Shown here: positions 28,840-34,716 of the stretch, in pieces
How positions within the stretch are numbered: the stretch's first letter is position 1
Layout: each line of letters opens with the position of its first letter
Assembly (NCBI GenBank): GCA_027452125.1
Contig: DAIDGZ010000011.1
Span: 1-60,672, forward strand
Reading direction: 5' to 3'
DNA from: Acidobacteriaceae bacterium
GTDB lineage: Bacteria > Acidobacteriota > Terriglobia > Terriglobales > Acidobacteriaceae
DNA: 60,672 bases
Translations under genes and position numbers: made by a program
The notes under the pieces: generated by a model
Told to the model about the DNA's origin: nothing
What the model saw: the letters and a program-made list of their open reading frames with translations, nothing else
The model's database searches: none

Positions 28840-28866
28840 CGATTGAATCCACTCCTCGGAGAGGCA

Positions 28867-30024
28867 ATGCAGGCTATATTGGCGCTCGAAGACGGGCGCA
28901 TCTTCCGTGGCCAAGGCTTTGGACATCAAGGTGAATGCCTGGGCGAGGTCGTTTTTAATACTTCCCTAACCGGTTATCAGGAGATCGCAACGGATCCTTC
29001 CTATGCCGGACAAATCGTCGTTCTCACCAATCCCCAAATCGGCAATTACGGCACAAATCATGCAGACAATGAGGCGGCAAAGCCCTTCATTGAAGGATTG
29101 ATTGTGCGCGAACTGTCGCACATCAGCTCCAACTGGCGCTCCGAACAGGTGACCGACGAGTACATGGAGCGCTACCAGGTTCCGGTGCTGGCGGAGATCG
29201 ACACGCGCGCGCTGGTCCGCCATCTGCGCAATCAGGGCGTGATGCGCGGAGTCATCACTACCAGGGCGGGAGAGTTTACCGCGGCGGATGTGGATGGACT
29301 GGTCGCCAAGGCGCGTTCGATCCCCAAGATGGAAGGAACGGACCTGGCCAAGGTGGTATCGACCAAGTCGGTATATACCTTCGACGCCGACGATGTGCGG
29401 AACCAGACCGGCGACACGCTGTTGCCTGGCATGCCGAACGGGGACAAACGAAAGCTGCTGCACGTGGTCGCCTACGACTTCGGCATCAAGCAGAACATCC
29501 TGCGCATGCTCACGCGCGAGGGCTGCCGGGTTACGGTGGTTCCTGCCGGAACCAAGGCAGAGGATGTACTGGAGATGAAGCCCGATGGAGTCTTCCTGTC
29601 GAACGGACCGGGAGATCCCGAGCCTGTGGATTACGCAGTGAAGGCGATTCGGCAGATCATCGGACGCATCCCGGTCTTCGGCATCTGCCTGGGACACCAG
29701 CTTACGGGCCTTGCGCTTGGCGGACGTACCTACAAGCTCAAGTTCGGGCACCACGGCGGTAATCACCCGGTGCGGAACAACAAGACCGGCAAGGTGGAGA
29801 TCACTGCGCACAACCACAACTTTGCGGTTGATCCGGAGTCGATCAACGCCAACGAAGTGGAACTGACGCACGTAGACCTGAACGACAACACGCTGGAAGG
29901 CCTGCGCCACAAGTCGCTTCCCCTGTTCAGCGTGCAGTATCACCCAGAGGCAGCGCCGGGGCCCCACGACTCGCACTACCTGTTCCGCGACTTCCGCGCC
30001 ATGATGGAGGAGTGGAAGGGATGA
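28867..30024 (+). CDS. carA: Carbamoyl-phosphate synthase, small (glutaminase) subunit
   Basis: A 385-residue subunit that hydrolyses glutamine to feed ammonia to CarB for carbamoyl phosphate (pyrimidine and arginine synthesis). ATG 28867 follows GGAGAGG. The N-terminal CarA domain ([33 protein letters not shown]) is followed by a class I amidotransferase domain. It carries the nucleophile Cys274 in [16 protein letters not shown] and the His-x-Glu pair in [14 protein letters not shown]. The stop TGA overlaps the next gene's ATG (ATGA), so the following hypothetical gene is translationally coupled to it. carB is 1.4 kb further on. Confidence 0.96.
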
Positions 30025-30548
30025 AAAAGACTCCCCTCATCCTGTTTATGTTCTTGGGATTGGGGAGTTGTTTTTCTTCTGCACAGGGCCAACAAGATAT
30101 AGGCCCCTTCGACAGATATCTGGCTGGTCTCAAGATGAAGCAACCAGAAGCAGAATTGGTCCGCTTCGCAGGAGAATGCGGTGTGGACCTCAAGGCGGTC
30201 GCGCCTCGTTTTGCCCAAAGCCCAAATCAGAAGTGGATTCCGGTCAAGGACCTTTCCAGTGCCTTGAAAGACCAAGAGACCGATTTCTATGCAACCGTTT
30301 CAGTTTGGCATATTGGAGACACGGTTTTGCTTGAAGAATGGGGCATGAAATTGGACACCGGTAGTTTTTCGCGACAGTTGGTTTGTTTGAAGGGCTCAAA
30401 GATCAGTTTCTTTGAGGGTGTGGACTGGACAATCCCGGTCGAGGGAGAAAGCTCCTCCAATCCGTCATGGGATTATCAACAGTTCTGGAGAGCCGGGCAG
30501 AACGGTGCTTATACGAAGATGTGGAGTATATCCATGAGCGCCCAATGA
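30021..30548 (+). CDS. Small exported or lipoprotein-like hypothetical protein, coupled to carA
   Basis: A 175-residue protein of unknown function. ATG 30021 overlaps the carA stop (ATGA), so it is read by ribosomes leaving carA. The N-terminus [17 protein letters not shown] is a signal peptide with a lipobox-like LGSC. The mature part ([20 protein letters not shown], then [21 protein letters not shown]) is a mix of strands and helices I do not recognise. Its codons are visibly less GC-rich than carA and carB, suggesting later arrival. It begins the 1.4-kb block that separates carA from carB. A tiny ORF follows with another ATGA overlap. Confidence 0.65.
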
Positions 30549-30649
30549 AAGCGCCGGCATTGGATGCAGAAACAAAGAGAGATCTTGATTGGAAATGGGA
30601 AGTTCATACCTGGAAAGATCTGAATTACCCAGACGCGCTTTTGAAATGA
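30545..30649 (+). CDS. Tiny ORF or frameshifted tail after the carA-coupled gene
   Basis: A 34-codon frame starting [20 protein letters not shown] and ending at TGA 30647-30649. Its ATG overlaps the stop of the preceding gene (ATGA). The composition is protein-like (charged helix followed by WKDLNYPDALL). It may be a real small coupled protein, or the original C-terminus of the upstream protein lost by a frameshift. I cannot decide from one sequence. Confidence 0.3.
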   Translation: MKAPALDAETKRDLDWKWEVHTWKDLNYPDALLK

Positions 30650-30676
30650 CTCCCAACTTGGAGTGCCTTGAAGGGG

Positions 30677-30826
30677 CACGGCTTTAGCCGTGGCGCTACG
30701 GATGCAAAGGAATTGACGGCTTTAGCCGCTGAGGAACGATGGGCACGGCGACCGAATGAAGGGTACGGCCTTTAGGCCGTACGTTAGAAGCAGTAGAACA
30801 CCCGGGCTTTAGCCCCTGAGGGAATG
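30677..30826 (+). repeat. REP palindromes on the left side of the RAYT gene
   Basis: Several short palindromes built on GGCTTTAGCC or GGCCTTTAGGCC lie in about 150 bases. They are CACGGCT-TT-AGCCGTG (30677-30692), GACGGCTTTAGCCGCTGAGGA (30715 on), a 20-base palindrome GTACGGCCT-TT-AGGCCGTAC (30763-30782) and GGGCTTTAGCCCC... (30804-30826). The last one returns as an exact 23-base inverted copy at 31259-31281. These are typical REP/BIME-like elements mobilised by a RAYT transposase. Confidence 0.85.
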
Positions 30827-30828
30827 GG

Positions 30829-31404
30829 ATGCGTCCAGCAAGAGAGCCAAATCGGAACAGTGACGCCACCTATTTTGTCTCCACCCAGACGGCAGGTCGA
30901 AAGCCATTTTTTCGTCACAAACGCTGGGCGCGGTTGATGATGGCAACTCTCCAACGTTATGCCGAGAAAGATTTCATCCTTCACGCCTATGTCATCATGC
31001 CGGACCACCTGCACCTGCTCATCACTCCAAATGAGAGTCTTGAGAAAGCCGTTCAGTTGATCAAGGGCGGATTTTCTTTCCGAGCGAAGCGCGAACTCGA
31101 TTACAAGTTCGACATCTGGCAGCCGGGATTTACCGATCACCGCATTCGCGATGAGGAAGACTGGAAGCGCCATCTTGAATACATCCGCAGCAATCCCCTT
31201 GAAGTCAGGTTGGTGGAAGATTCTGTCCTCTACGAGTACATGGGCTTTCCTAACATCGCATTCCCTCAGGGGCTAAAGCCCCGCGAGTTAAGCGATGTGG
31301 ATGTACGGCCTGAAGGCCGTACCCTTCAACCCAAAGGCCGCATTCGTCAACCTGAGGGCCGTACGCTTCAAGAAGACAACAAGCAAGTTTGTCCCCCAAA
31401 GTAA
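30829..31404 (+). mobile_element. REP-associated tyrosine transposase (RAYT, IS200-like Y1 family)
   Basis: A 191-codon gene for a single-domain Y1 transposase that cuts and joins single-stranded REP hairpins. The HUH-like metal motif is H60-L-H62 in IMPDHLHLLI, and the catalytic tyrosine is Y118 in HLEYIRSNPLE. Conserved RAYT features also include the N-terminal ATYFVSTQTAGRKPFF segment and FDIWQPGFTDHRIRDEEDW. The conserved domain ends near residue 142. The last 48 residues (from IAFPQGLKPRELS) are simply the translation of REP palindromes, giving repeats of the RPEGRTLQ kind. ATG 30829 lies two bases past the left REP. The unit is inserted between carA and carB, on the same strand, and may still be transcribed with them. 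Confidence 0.9.
31259..31370 (+). repeat. REP palindromes on the right side, inside the RAYT 3-prime codons
   Basis: CATTCCCTCAGG... at 31259-31281 is the exact 23-base inverse of 30804-30826. A 20-base palindrome GTACGGCCT-GA-AGGCCGTAC follows at 31303-31322. Two half-units then follow (AAAGGCCG near 31333, CCTGAGGGCCGTACGCTTCA at 31351-31370). All are translated in frame as the RAYT C-terminal tail. Confidence 0.85.
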
Positions 31405-31422
31405 AGGTCAAAGAAGAAGAGA

Positions 31423-34400
31423 ATGCCACGCAGAAATGACATCCAGAAGATCCTCGTGATCGGCTCCGGCCCGATCGTGATCGGCCAGTCGGCCGAGTTC
31501 GACTACTCCGGCACACAGGCCTGCAAGGCGCTCAAGCAGGAAGGCTATGAGGTGGTGCTGGTCAATTCCAACCCGGCCACCATCATGACCGATCCGGAAC
31601 TGGCGGACCGGACCTATATTGAGCCGCTGAGCCGCGACTATCTGGAGGAGGTCATCCGCATCGAGTCGGAGATGCTGGCCACGCAGCCGGGCGCGGGCAA
31701 GTTTGCCCTGCTGCCTACGGTAGGCGGGCAGACGGCGCTCAACCTGGCCGTGGATCTTTCCGATGCGGGCATTCTGGAGAAGTATGGCGTTGAGCTGATT
31801 GGCGCCAAGCTGGATGCCATCAAGAAGGCGGAAGATCGCCTGCTCTTCAAGGATGCGATGATTCGCATCGGCCTGGACGTGGCGCGCTCGGCGCTGGTGA
31901 ATAATCTGCGCGACGGCATGGACTTTGCCGGCAAGATGGGCTTCCCGGTGTTGATCCGGCCCAGCTTTACGCTCGGCGGCTCCGGCGGCGGAATCGCCTA
32001 CAACCGCGAAGAGCTGATGGAGATTCTCTCCCGCGGTCTCGATCTCTCTCCCGTCCACGAGTGCCTGATCGAAGAGAGCATCCTCGGCTGGAAGGAGTAC
32101 GAACTGGAGGTGATGCGCGACCTCGCGGACAACGTCATCATCATCTGCTCGATTGAGAACTTCGATCCGATGGGCGTGCACACCGGGGACTCCATCACCG
32201 TGGCTCCGGCGCAGACGCTTACCGATCGCGAGTACCAGAAGATGCGCGATGCCGCGCTGGCCGTGATGCGCGAAATCGGCGTGGAGACTGGCGGCTCCAA
32301 CGTGCAGTTCGCTGTGAACCCGCAGGATGGCCGCATGATCGTCATCGAGATGAACCCGCGCGTCTCGCGTTCCTCGGCGCTGGCCTCGAAGGCTACCGGC
32401 TTCCCGATCGCCAAGATTGCGGCCAAACTTGCTGTGGGTTACACGCTGGACGAGATTCCCAATGACATCACGCGCAAGACGCCGGCCTGCTTTGAGCCCA
32501 CCATCGACTACGTGGTGGTAAAGATTCCCAAGTGGCAGTTTGAGAAGTTCCAGGGCGCGGATGACACGCTGGGTCCGCAGATGAAGTCTGTGGGCGAGGT
32601 GATGGCCATGGGCCGCACCTTCAAGGAAGCCCTGATGAAGGCTTGGCGCGCACTGGAGACCGGCAAAAAGACCGGCTCCGAGGTGCTGGAGCCGAAGCGC
32701 CTGACGCAGATGCTGGTGACGCCGCGGCCGGAGCGCCTGGGCTATATCCGCTTTGCCTTTGAGCGCGGCATGAGCGTACGCGAAGTGGCGCGGCTCACCG
32801 GCATGGATCCCTGGTTCCTGCACCAGATTCGCGAAGTGACGCAGGCGCAGGGCGCCATCAGCCACACTACGCCGGACGCCATCTCTGCCGAGGAGCTGCG
32901 CCGCCTGAAGCGCCTGGGCCTGAGCGACGAGCGCATCGCCACCGAGTGGAAGCTGGAAGGGCACGAGGGCGTGCGCAAGGTGAGGGAACTGCGCGAGAGC
33001 AAGGGAATTCGCCCGGTCTTCAAGCTGGTGGATACCTGCGCCGCGGAGTTTGAGTCGATGACACCCTACCTCTACTCGACCTACGACGAAGAGGACGAGG
33101 CGGCACCGACCGACAAACCCAAGATCATCATCCTCGGTTCGGGACCGAACCGCATCGGCCAGGGCATTGAGATCGACTACTGCTGCTGCCATGCAGCCTT
33201 TGCACTCAAGGACGACGGCTACGAGACCATCATGGTCAACTGCAACCCTGAGACCGTCTCCACTGACTACGACACCAGCGACCGCCTCTACTTTGAACCG
33301 CTGACGCTGGAAGACGTGCTCGCCGTCTATCACCACGAAGCACAATCCGGCGCCCAGGTGGGCATGATCGTGCAGTTTGGCGGACAGACGCCACTGAACC
33401 TCGCGCAGCGTCTGCGTGCCGCGGGCGTGCCGATCGTGGGCACCTCGCCGGAGTCGATTGATCTGGCCGAGGATCGCAAGCGTTTCGGCAAGCTTCTGGA
33501 GGAGTTGCAGATTCCCCAGCCGCAGGGCGGAACAGCGACGAGCGAGAAGGAAGCTCTGGCCGTGGCGGAGCGCATTGGCTATCCCGTGCTGGTGCGGCCC
33601 AGCTACGTGCTGGGTGGCCGCGCCATGGTCATCGCATACGACGCCAACGCCGTGGCGCATTACATGCGCGAGGCAGTGGAGTACTCGCAGGAGCGCCCTG
33701 TGCTCATCGATCACTTCCTGGAGAATGCCGTTGAGGTGGACATCGACGCGCTGTGCGACTCAGAGGACGTGGTCATCGCCGGCATCATGCAGCACATTGA
33801 AGAAGCCGGCATTCACTCCGGCGACTCCTCCTGTGTGCTGCCTGCAGTGAGCATCCGCAAGGAAACACTGGACACGCTGCGCAACTACACGCGGAAGCTC
33901 GCGATGGCGCTGAAGGTAATCGGCCTGGTCAACCTGCAGTTCGCCATTCAGCGTGACGAGCAGGGCAACGACAACGTCTATGTGATCGAAGTGAACCCAC
34001 GCGCCTCGCGCACGGTGCCGTATGTCTCCAAGGCTACGGGGATTCCGCTGGCCAAGATTGCTTCGCGCCTGATGACCGGCCGCAAGCTGCGCGAACTGCT
34101 TCCGGAACAGCTTGCCAGCGGCAAGGATCTGGATACCGGCTCGTATTACTACGTCAAGTCTCCGGTCTTCCCGTGGGGCAAGTTTATCGGCGTGGATACG
34201 GTGCTTGGCCCGGAGATGAAGTCCACCGGCGAGGTAATGGGCGTGGCTTCGAGCTTTGGTGAGGCCTTTGCCAAGGCACAACTCTCCGCTGGGCAAACAC
34301 TACCCACCAGCGGAACAGTGTTCTTCAGCGTGAATGATCACGACAAGGCTGCCGCAGTGGATCTGGCGCGCCGCTACCAGCATCTCGGCTTCAAGCTGGT

Positions 34401-34716
34401 GGCTACGGAAGGCACAGCCAATGCACTGGAGGGCGCGGGCCTGATTGTAGAGCGGATCTTCAAGGTGAAGGAAGGCCGGCCCAACATTGTGGACCTGATC
34501 AAGGAAGGCCGGATTCAGCTGATCGTGAATACGCCGCAGGGGCAGGACACCTTCTTTGACGAGAAGGCAATCCGCCGCGCGTCAGTGCTTGCGCGGATTC
34601 CTACCATCACCACCATTGCTGCGGCTCAGGCAGCTGCTGAGGGCATCGCGGCGCGCCAGCGGCACAGCACCACGGTCTACGCCCTGCAGCAGCTTCACAA
34701 GGAAAAAGGCGCCTGA
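31423..34716 (+). CDS. carB: Carbamoyl-phosphate synthase, large subunit
   Basis: A 1097-residue synthase that makes carbamoyl phosphate from bicarbonate, two ATP and ammonia delivered by CarA. The two homologous ATP-grasp halves are evident: [20 protein letters not shown] near the N-terminus and [21 protein letters not shown] near residue 570. Metal-binding [16 protein letters not shown] and [16 protein letters not shown] repeat the same motif. The C-terminal methylglyoxal-synthase-like allosteric domain (from about residue 960, [20 protein letters not shown]) is present. A GAAGAAGAG ribosome site precedes ATG 31423. The stop lies inside a 12-bp hairpin (34708-34734). Confidence 0.97.

Follow-up and report, generated by a model that had tools for sequence, protein, structure and literature searches.

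The closest described system is the REPtron, which consists of a REP-associated tyrosine transposase (RAYT; TnpAREP in E. coli) and its REPs. In the parts of PMC2817692, PMC3116915 and PMC8266576 considered here, the REPtron combines an HUH/Tyr transposase with inverted REPs on both sides, REPINs, a single-copy, housekeeping-like behaviour and REP stems that change with compensation, and all of these traits are shared by the locus described below. PMC2817692 and PMC3116915 describe the inverted REPs that surround RAYTs, as well as REPINs, the stability of the single copy and compensatory changes in REPs. The role of the RAYT tail is described for E. coli in the relevant section of PMC8266576: TnpAREP without its last 13 residues is more active, removal of 21 or 34 residues damages the enzyme, and the tail, with residues that contact the REP foot, is considered regulatory. 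The locus differs from the REPtron, as far as these sections describe it, in three respects. Its REP foot is not GT[AG]G, its 5' REP supplies an apparent ribosome-binding site, and its 3' REPIN lies inside the coding frame, whereas in PMC2817692 many of the REPs directly follow the stop codon or are located at a very short distance from it.

Acidobacterial RAYT-like genes flanked by inverted repeats were already reported in 2013 (PMC3733652), together with in-frame REPs in many proteins, and legends in that paper carry a mark for repeats overlapping with the gene at its 3' end. By its description, this TIRYT/TIRtron group resembles the present locus, but the portions of PMC3733652 considered contain no report of frame upkeep or of a carAB slot. 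Subclass 2.4 of tnpAREP carries REPs within the transposase gene with the frame kept (PMC6006769, in part), although the inserts there are generally located between the HuH and Tyr motifs, while the 3' REPIN studied here constitutes the C-terminus. The Rickettsia palindromic elements are likewise found in frame in unrelated proteins (PMC10969869 and PMC3733652, in part); in contrast to them, the same palindrome flanks a transposase gene here and encodes its tail. No mobiliser is named for the translated Rickettsia palindromes in the text considered of PMC10969869, and the corresponding passages of PMC3733652 assign RPE-4 and RPE-6 to the CGTC repeats, to which they link no transposase. Translated REPs are already known from these sources, and upkeep of the frame in a RAYT tail appears to be the new part; neither this upkeep in a REP-coded tail nor the carAB slot was found in the open-licence papers searched, as far as their text was covered.

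The locus is part of a window of 60,672 nucleotides, i.e., the whole stretch of DNA analysed, which corresponds to contig G000:C11 of the draft genome of an acidobacterial soil bacterium (2.7 Mb, 178 contigs, 67% complete). It contains a RAYT gene between carA and carB, two genes of pyrimidine synthesis, and shows the following features.

28843 to 30024, plus strand: carA, carbamoyl-phosphate synthase small subunit, the 5' neighbour (TIGR01368, 501 bits).
30012 to 30548, plus strand: small open reading frame that overlaps the carA stop, with an ATG at 30048 and no Pfam or NCBIfam match.
30669 to 30736, plus strand: third, older and degenerate REP pair of the sister (GCACGGC) flavour (REPIN script, span 39; fold z -3.4).
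30757 to 30826, plus strand: 5' REPIN, with outer REP 30757-30782, linker 30783-30803 and inner REP 30804-30826.
30818 to 30823, plus strand: GAGGGA of the inner 5' REP, a putative ribosome-binding site 5 bases upstream of the start codon.
30829 to 31404, plus strand: RAYT, 191 amino acids (NF047646, PF01797, 4er8).
31259 to 31328, plus strand: coding 3' REPIN, with inner REP 31259-31281, linker 31282-31302 and outer REP 31303-31328.
31313 to 31371, plus strand: in-frame tandem repeat of 21 bp, 2.8 copies, of the 3' half of the outer REP (from the sequence).
31423 to 34716, plus strand: carB, carbamoyl-phosphate synthase large subunit, starting 18 bases past the RAYT stop (NF003671, 1650.8 bits).

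The encoded transposase scores 108.7 bits against the NCBIfam model REP_Tyr_transpos (NF047646, cut-off 80) and matches Pfam Y1_Tnp (PF01797). The solved E. coli TnpAREP structure 4er8 is matched at the sequence level (E 1.8e-9) and is also the top Foldseek match of the structure model (E 2.8e-8). His60, His62, Tyr118, Asn122 and Pro123 are invariant in 14 of 14 sequences, and following the parts considered of PMC2817692 and PMC8266576, His60 and His62 (HUH) and Tyr118 with the NP motif are taken as the putative catalytic residues. The 14 named RAYT relatives are all acidobacterial, and the RAYT is the sole such gene found in the draft genome. Classification as an IS200/IS605 insertion sequence was rejected because the profile NF033573 reached 24.2 bits, below its cut-off of 55, and a single copy was found in the draft genome.

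The original prediction described a RAYT bounded by exact 23-base inverted repeats with translated REPs as its C-terminus. The arms are indeed identical, as 30804-30826 is the exact reverse complement of 31259-31281 (23/23 bases), and inverted pairs of this kind are expected by chance at about 2.6e-9 per 600 bp. With the arms lengthened to 28 bases (30804-30831 and 31254-31281), there is a single mismatch (27 of 28), and the start codon at 30829 forms the last three bases of the left arm. The arms do not represent the outer ends, however, because an outer inverted pair at 30757-30782 and 31303-31328 matches in 25 of 26 bases, with a perfect hairpin in each arm. Each 23-bp arm forms the inner half of a REP pair (REPIN), and both pairs have the REPIN-like order of foot, hairpin, linker, hairpin and foot. 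Inner and outer arms are separated by linkers of 21 bases, which show no apparent sequence relation to each other. Both REPINs fold into more stable structures than shuffled sequences (z -2.6 and -3.4). The outer hairpins at both ends of the window copy read GTACGGCCT..AGGCCGTAC, while the type-1 loci L008-L012 and L016 carry GTACGGGCT..AGCCCGTAC at the same place, suggesting that the two ends of the window copy have changed together.

Sequence and folds place AAGG before the outer and CTCA before the inner hairpin as REP feet, and the canonical GT[AG]G tetranucleotide is absent from the foot at the window locus. Since related subclasses without GT[AG]G are described in the part considered of PMC6006769, the gene is filed as a RAYT with non-canonical REPs; the RAYT assignment itself, the inverted REPs on both sides and the translated C-terminus agree with the original prediction. 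The CTGAG with which the 5' REP ends is found exactly 8 bases upstream of the homology-defined start in 18 of the 23 RAYTs that have a 5' REPIN. From the sequence, we infer that the GAGGGA of the upstream REP may act as a ribosome-binding site.

As predicted, the last 48 codons run through the REP palindromes: positions 31259-31401 comprise 47.7 codons and encode the tail AFPQGLKPRELSDVDVRPEGRTLQPKGRIRQPEGRTLQEDNKQVCPPK. The tail follows the pattern PQGLKP...VRPEGRTLQ in the window and PQGLKP...GTAEAVPFQ in the sister form, and the RPEGRTLQ-like repeats of the window tail arise from the 21-bp tandem repeat. This tandem expansion (31313-31371) appears to be local to the window copy, while the REP-coded tail itself appears to be a feature of the clade. 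A RAYT tail lengthened by an in-frame half-palindrome tandem repeat, with NAAPFQSNNDDTIQS as the repeated sequence, was also observed at L014 (G036:C381).

A scan of 30 RAYT loci by script detected 3' REPINs at 25 loci and 5' REPINs at 23. The 3' REPIN is located inside the open reading frame in 23 of the 25, two of which belong to another family, and past the stop codon in two (L012 and L036). The presence of the tail in 23 of 30 loci, including another family, indicates that it is old, contrary to the initial proposal that an original stop codon had been lost. At none of the 30 loci was the RPEGRTLQ tail found to be encoded by non-REP codons. The distance from inner to outer hairpin is 38 or 41 in all 23 coding 3' REPINs, and the outer hairpin is read as GTAEAVPFQ or VRAEARTL. 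A span of 2 modulo 3 is therefore found in 23/23 coding 3' REPINs, compared with 9/23 non-coding 5' REPINs (Fisher 6.8e-6). Assignment to the class inside the reading frame presupposes an open frame to some extent, and the 23 tails share ancestry. Compared with dispersed copies, the figures are 23/23 and 38/147 (Fisher 2.3e-12), the latter set being the 150 REPINs listed for 13 genomes minus 3 that belong to RAYTs, with possible coding copies retained.

Because the RAYT sequences are related, changes were also counted on the tree as minimal numbers. The 3' spans change at least 7 times, from 38 to 41 or back, versus at least 11 changes of the 5' spans and at least 10 of their frame class (Fisher on the minimal numbers, 2.5e-4). 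The frame is also kept in the five RAYTs of the 23 that are located outside the carAB slot (L010, L013, L014, L031 and L034), and the tail of L016, which was missed by the script, is in frame by eye. As read by eye or with a second script, the outer REP of L033 is in the usual frame and the inner REP in another, while a stop codon precedes the outer REP in five of the 30 loci (L012, L030, L032, L035 and L036). The distant homologues L217 and L220 apparently use other frames, as judged by eye. Comparison of the sequences demonstrates that the reading frame across the 3' REPIN is, to all appearances, kept in this clade.

Besides the frame, the conservation appears to concern the palindrome rather than the peptide. 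The protein is modelled with confidence up to about residue 145, and the rest is disordered in the model, with a pLDDT of about 44-58 past residue 150. The tail linker is hypervariable, there is no conservation in the residues that follow the REP, and the loop codon specifies E in some loci and K in others, which suggests that no tail side chain is under selection. When a stem pair changes from G-C to A-T, both codons change together, and the tail residues consequently covary. In the 15 of 30 loci matched by the regular expression used, residues from opposite stem arms are A..A in 10 and T..V in 5, and mixed combinations do not occur. L031 and L034 contain V..T, a further compensated pair, and L013 contains S..A, a broken pair (both by eye). 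The palindrome is mostly preserved through compensatory changes. The peptide follows the palindrome, and what is visibly selected seems to be the palindrome plus the open frame.

A RAYT is present in the carA-carB spacer of 21 of 59 same-genus genomes, the window included, and always on the carAB strand; the spacer was examined in these 59 of the 80 genomes available. carA is found on the same contig in 19 of the 21, and the contig ends before carA in G013 and G030. Among the 25 best RAYT matches listed, 21 are located at this slot. In a RAYT tree of 32 rows, the 16 type-2 slot RAYTs form one clade (SH-aLRT 97), and the 11 rows that represent other loci all fall outside it. The window RAYT belongs to type 1, of which 5 of 7 members in this tree occupy the slot. 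The other two, G001:C13 and G051:C113, are located elsewhere, indicating that the type has moved at some time, and the sister genomes G020 and G030 have different RAYT types in the same slot. The order carA-RAYT-carB is also found in G142, from another family (partial RAYT match), and in L220, where carA and carB show 63% and 69% identity. In a tree of carB, the presence of a RAYT at the slot changes at least 16 times, although this tree is poorly resolved (747 bases; 59 rows, 18 of them with a RAYT because 3 of the 21 were dropped; a damaged G036 row with a branch length of 10), and it provides weak evidence in the choice between a single insertion and repeated occupation of the slot. Empty sites, which the original prediction proposed to look for, did not turn up in clean and precise form among the RAYT-less sisters, which share the carA and carB ends with most of the spacer unalignable. 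A relative of the small open reading frame at 30012..30548, with 36% identity, is present in RAYT locus L025.

In 15 of the 21 genomes, carB starts -17 to +65 bases from the RAYT stop, and in five the two are 112-594 bases apart. In G025, G031 and G036 (L085, L088 and L092), the RAYT stop codon is located 17 bases inside carB, suggesting translational coupling. In G018, a genome rated 100% complete, the RAYT frame continues into carB without a stop (L080 / L021, G018:C41:28667-30134), which predicts a RAYT-CarB fusion.

Further REP copies, which the original prediction requires, are present in the draft genome only in a related flavour. The window hairpin and the 20-base inner arm occur at this locus only, and a looser inner-arm pattern yields one extra match with 1 mismatch. 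A translated-REP profile search of the genome detected two pairs of the sister (type-2) flavour, on G000:C102 (E 1.9e-6) and G000:C175 (E 0.53). These pairs (L225, G000:C102:84-143; L228, G000:C175:6852-6878) have a slightly different foot, ending GTGCCCTG, and their position near contig ends suggests that the short-read assembly may hide more. As the window flavour is found nowhere else in the draft genome, no spread by the window RAYT is visible here. The exact type-2 REPIN pattern is found in 69 of 80 genomes of the genus, with up to 85 copies (G036) and none in the window genome, and its reversed control gives no matches. Matches to the type-1 outer hairpin are present in 48 of 79 genomes; the window genome has two, both in the window (30760-30782 and 31303-31325). 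Type-1 REPs are more common in genomes with a type-1 RAYT (median 9 versus 1, p 0.006), while no link was found between the number of type-2 REPINs and the presence of a type-2 RAYT at the carAB slot (p 0.22).

In relatives of the window genome, and only there, the same palindrome is found in frame in unrelated proteins. A CarB loop near residue 90 contains an in-frame REPIN in 5 of 56 readable same-genus CarBs, confirmed in the DNA (G011, G016, G020 and G030; degenerate in G051), and the loop of the window CarB has no REP insert. The insert is more common in CarBs with a RAYT next door (4/19 versus 1/37), a weak association (Fisher p 0.04). The CarB loop insert of G030 (L016 / L210, G030:C343) contains a translated type-1 REP and several translated type-2 REPs one after another, with about 90 extra residues. 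In G019, a REPIN is located in frame between the two winged-helix domains of an Lhr-type helicase and another within LpxB; G042 carries one at a similar place in an open reading frame that resembles the G019 helicase (by resemblance, with no domain scan). Among the 20 stretches sampled for coding REPINs, L193, L197, L200, L201, L202 and L204 resemble no known protein by eye, and L203, L205 and L209 have no motif in a long open reading frame. In a PurF-like protein (L195), an RlpA-like protein (L199) and cytochrome c (L194, L196), the REPIN precedes the domain and may be part of upstream non-coding DNA. A CarA insert in G011, suspected from a split match, was rejected, as it is not a REP.

The anatomy of the locus, the shared slot and the upkeep of both the palindrome and the frame across the 3' REPIN are evident from sequence comparison. 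Taken together, the locus is probably a RAYT that has settled in the carA-carB operon, apparently as a single copy, with flanking REPINs that double as gene parts. The upstream REPIN, which ends in GAGGGA, would provide the ribosome-binding site of the RAYT, and the downstream REPIN would be translated as its flexible C-terminal tail. By analogy to E. coli TnpAREP, the RAYT may cut and rejoin single-stranded REP hairpins, and in relatives such RAYTs may have spread REPINs, some of which would have landed in frame in housekeeping genes. The REP-coded tail may replace the flexible regulatory tail of TnpAREP, in which case the substrate DNA and the tail of the enzyme would be one sequence. One stretch of DNA, located where the gene of the enzyme presumed to act on it ends, would then apparently be subject to two constraints, hairpin and reading frame. 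A further-reaching idea, which we regard as speculative, is that of a self-referential transposase: its substrate DNA would encode its own regulatory tail and ribosome-binding site, and by spreading a translatable REPIN it would seed host proteins with in-frame peptides. If true, such a RAYT would be the mobiliser so far missing for protein-coding palindromes. With the same module in frame in housekeeping enzymes of relatives, questions about the mobiliser and the RAYT tail become testable in soil bacteria and in E. coli.

The upkeep of the frame could also reflect selection on translation through the hairpins rather than on the peptide, i.e., the passage of ribosomes across the 3' REPIN would keep its hairpins from blocking the transcript or translation before carB. 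The short distances between the RAYT stop and carB in 15 of the 21 genomes, the three overlaps, the in-frame fusion in G018 and the lack of conserved amino-acid identity in the tail linker are in line with this explanation, but the five RAYTs that are in frame outside the carAB slot and the five genomes with carB 112-594 bases downstream argue against it, and on its own it is considered unlikely. A regulatory peptide is favoured over a frame kept for ribosome passage, with chances that we judge to be about even. Neutral read-through, in which a REP happens to cover the gene end and the frame pattern results from shared ancestry and ascertainment, would be consistent with the disordered tail of the model, its hypervariable linker and the five homologues that stop before the outer REP. 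It is rather improbable, however, in view of the repeated 3' span changes, which all preserve the frame, while the changes at the 5' end mostly shift it. The original prediction of a self-contained mobile unit, recently moved and with its stop lost into REP sequence, could invoke the inverted REPs on both sides, the type-1 RAYTs at other loci and the different RAYT types at the slot in G020 and G030. It does not agree with the single copy found in the genome, the slot shared by most of the best homologues or a tail common to the clade and another family, and is very unlikely to be correct.

In this genus, accessory genes other than the RAYTs are also found in the carA-carB spacer, which is a hotspot for them and has lengths of 91-2471 bases in 57 same-genus genomes (window 30025-31422; spacers L067-L126). 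A terminator-like hairpin with a T run, a pattern absent from the window spacer, is located 3' of carA in 11 of 13 same-genus spacers shorter than 200 bases (e.g., L120/G077, L091/G035 and L103/G054). Besides RAYTs, the cargo includes a DNA methylase with an XhoI-type endonuclease in G010 (Pfam), gene pairs of similar length in G023, G045, G055, G065 and G070 (by length alone), weak GIY-YIG-like genes below the cut-off (G044 and G067) and a CarboxypepD_reg-like protein (G012).
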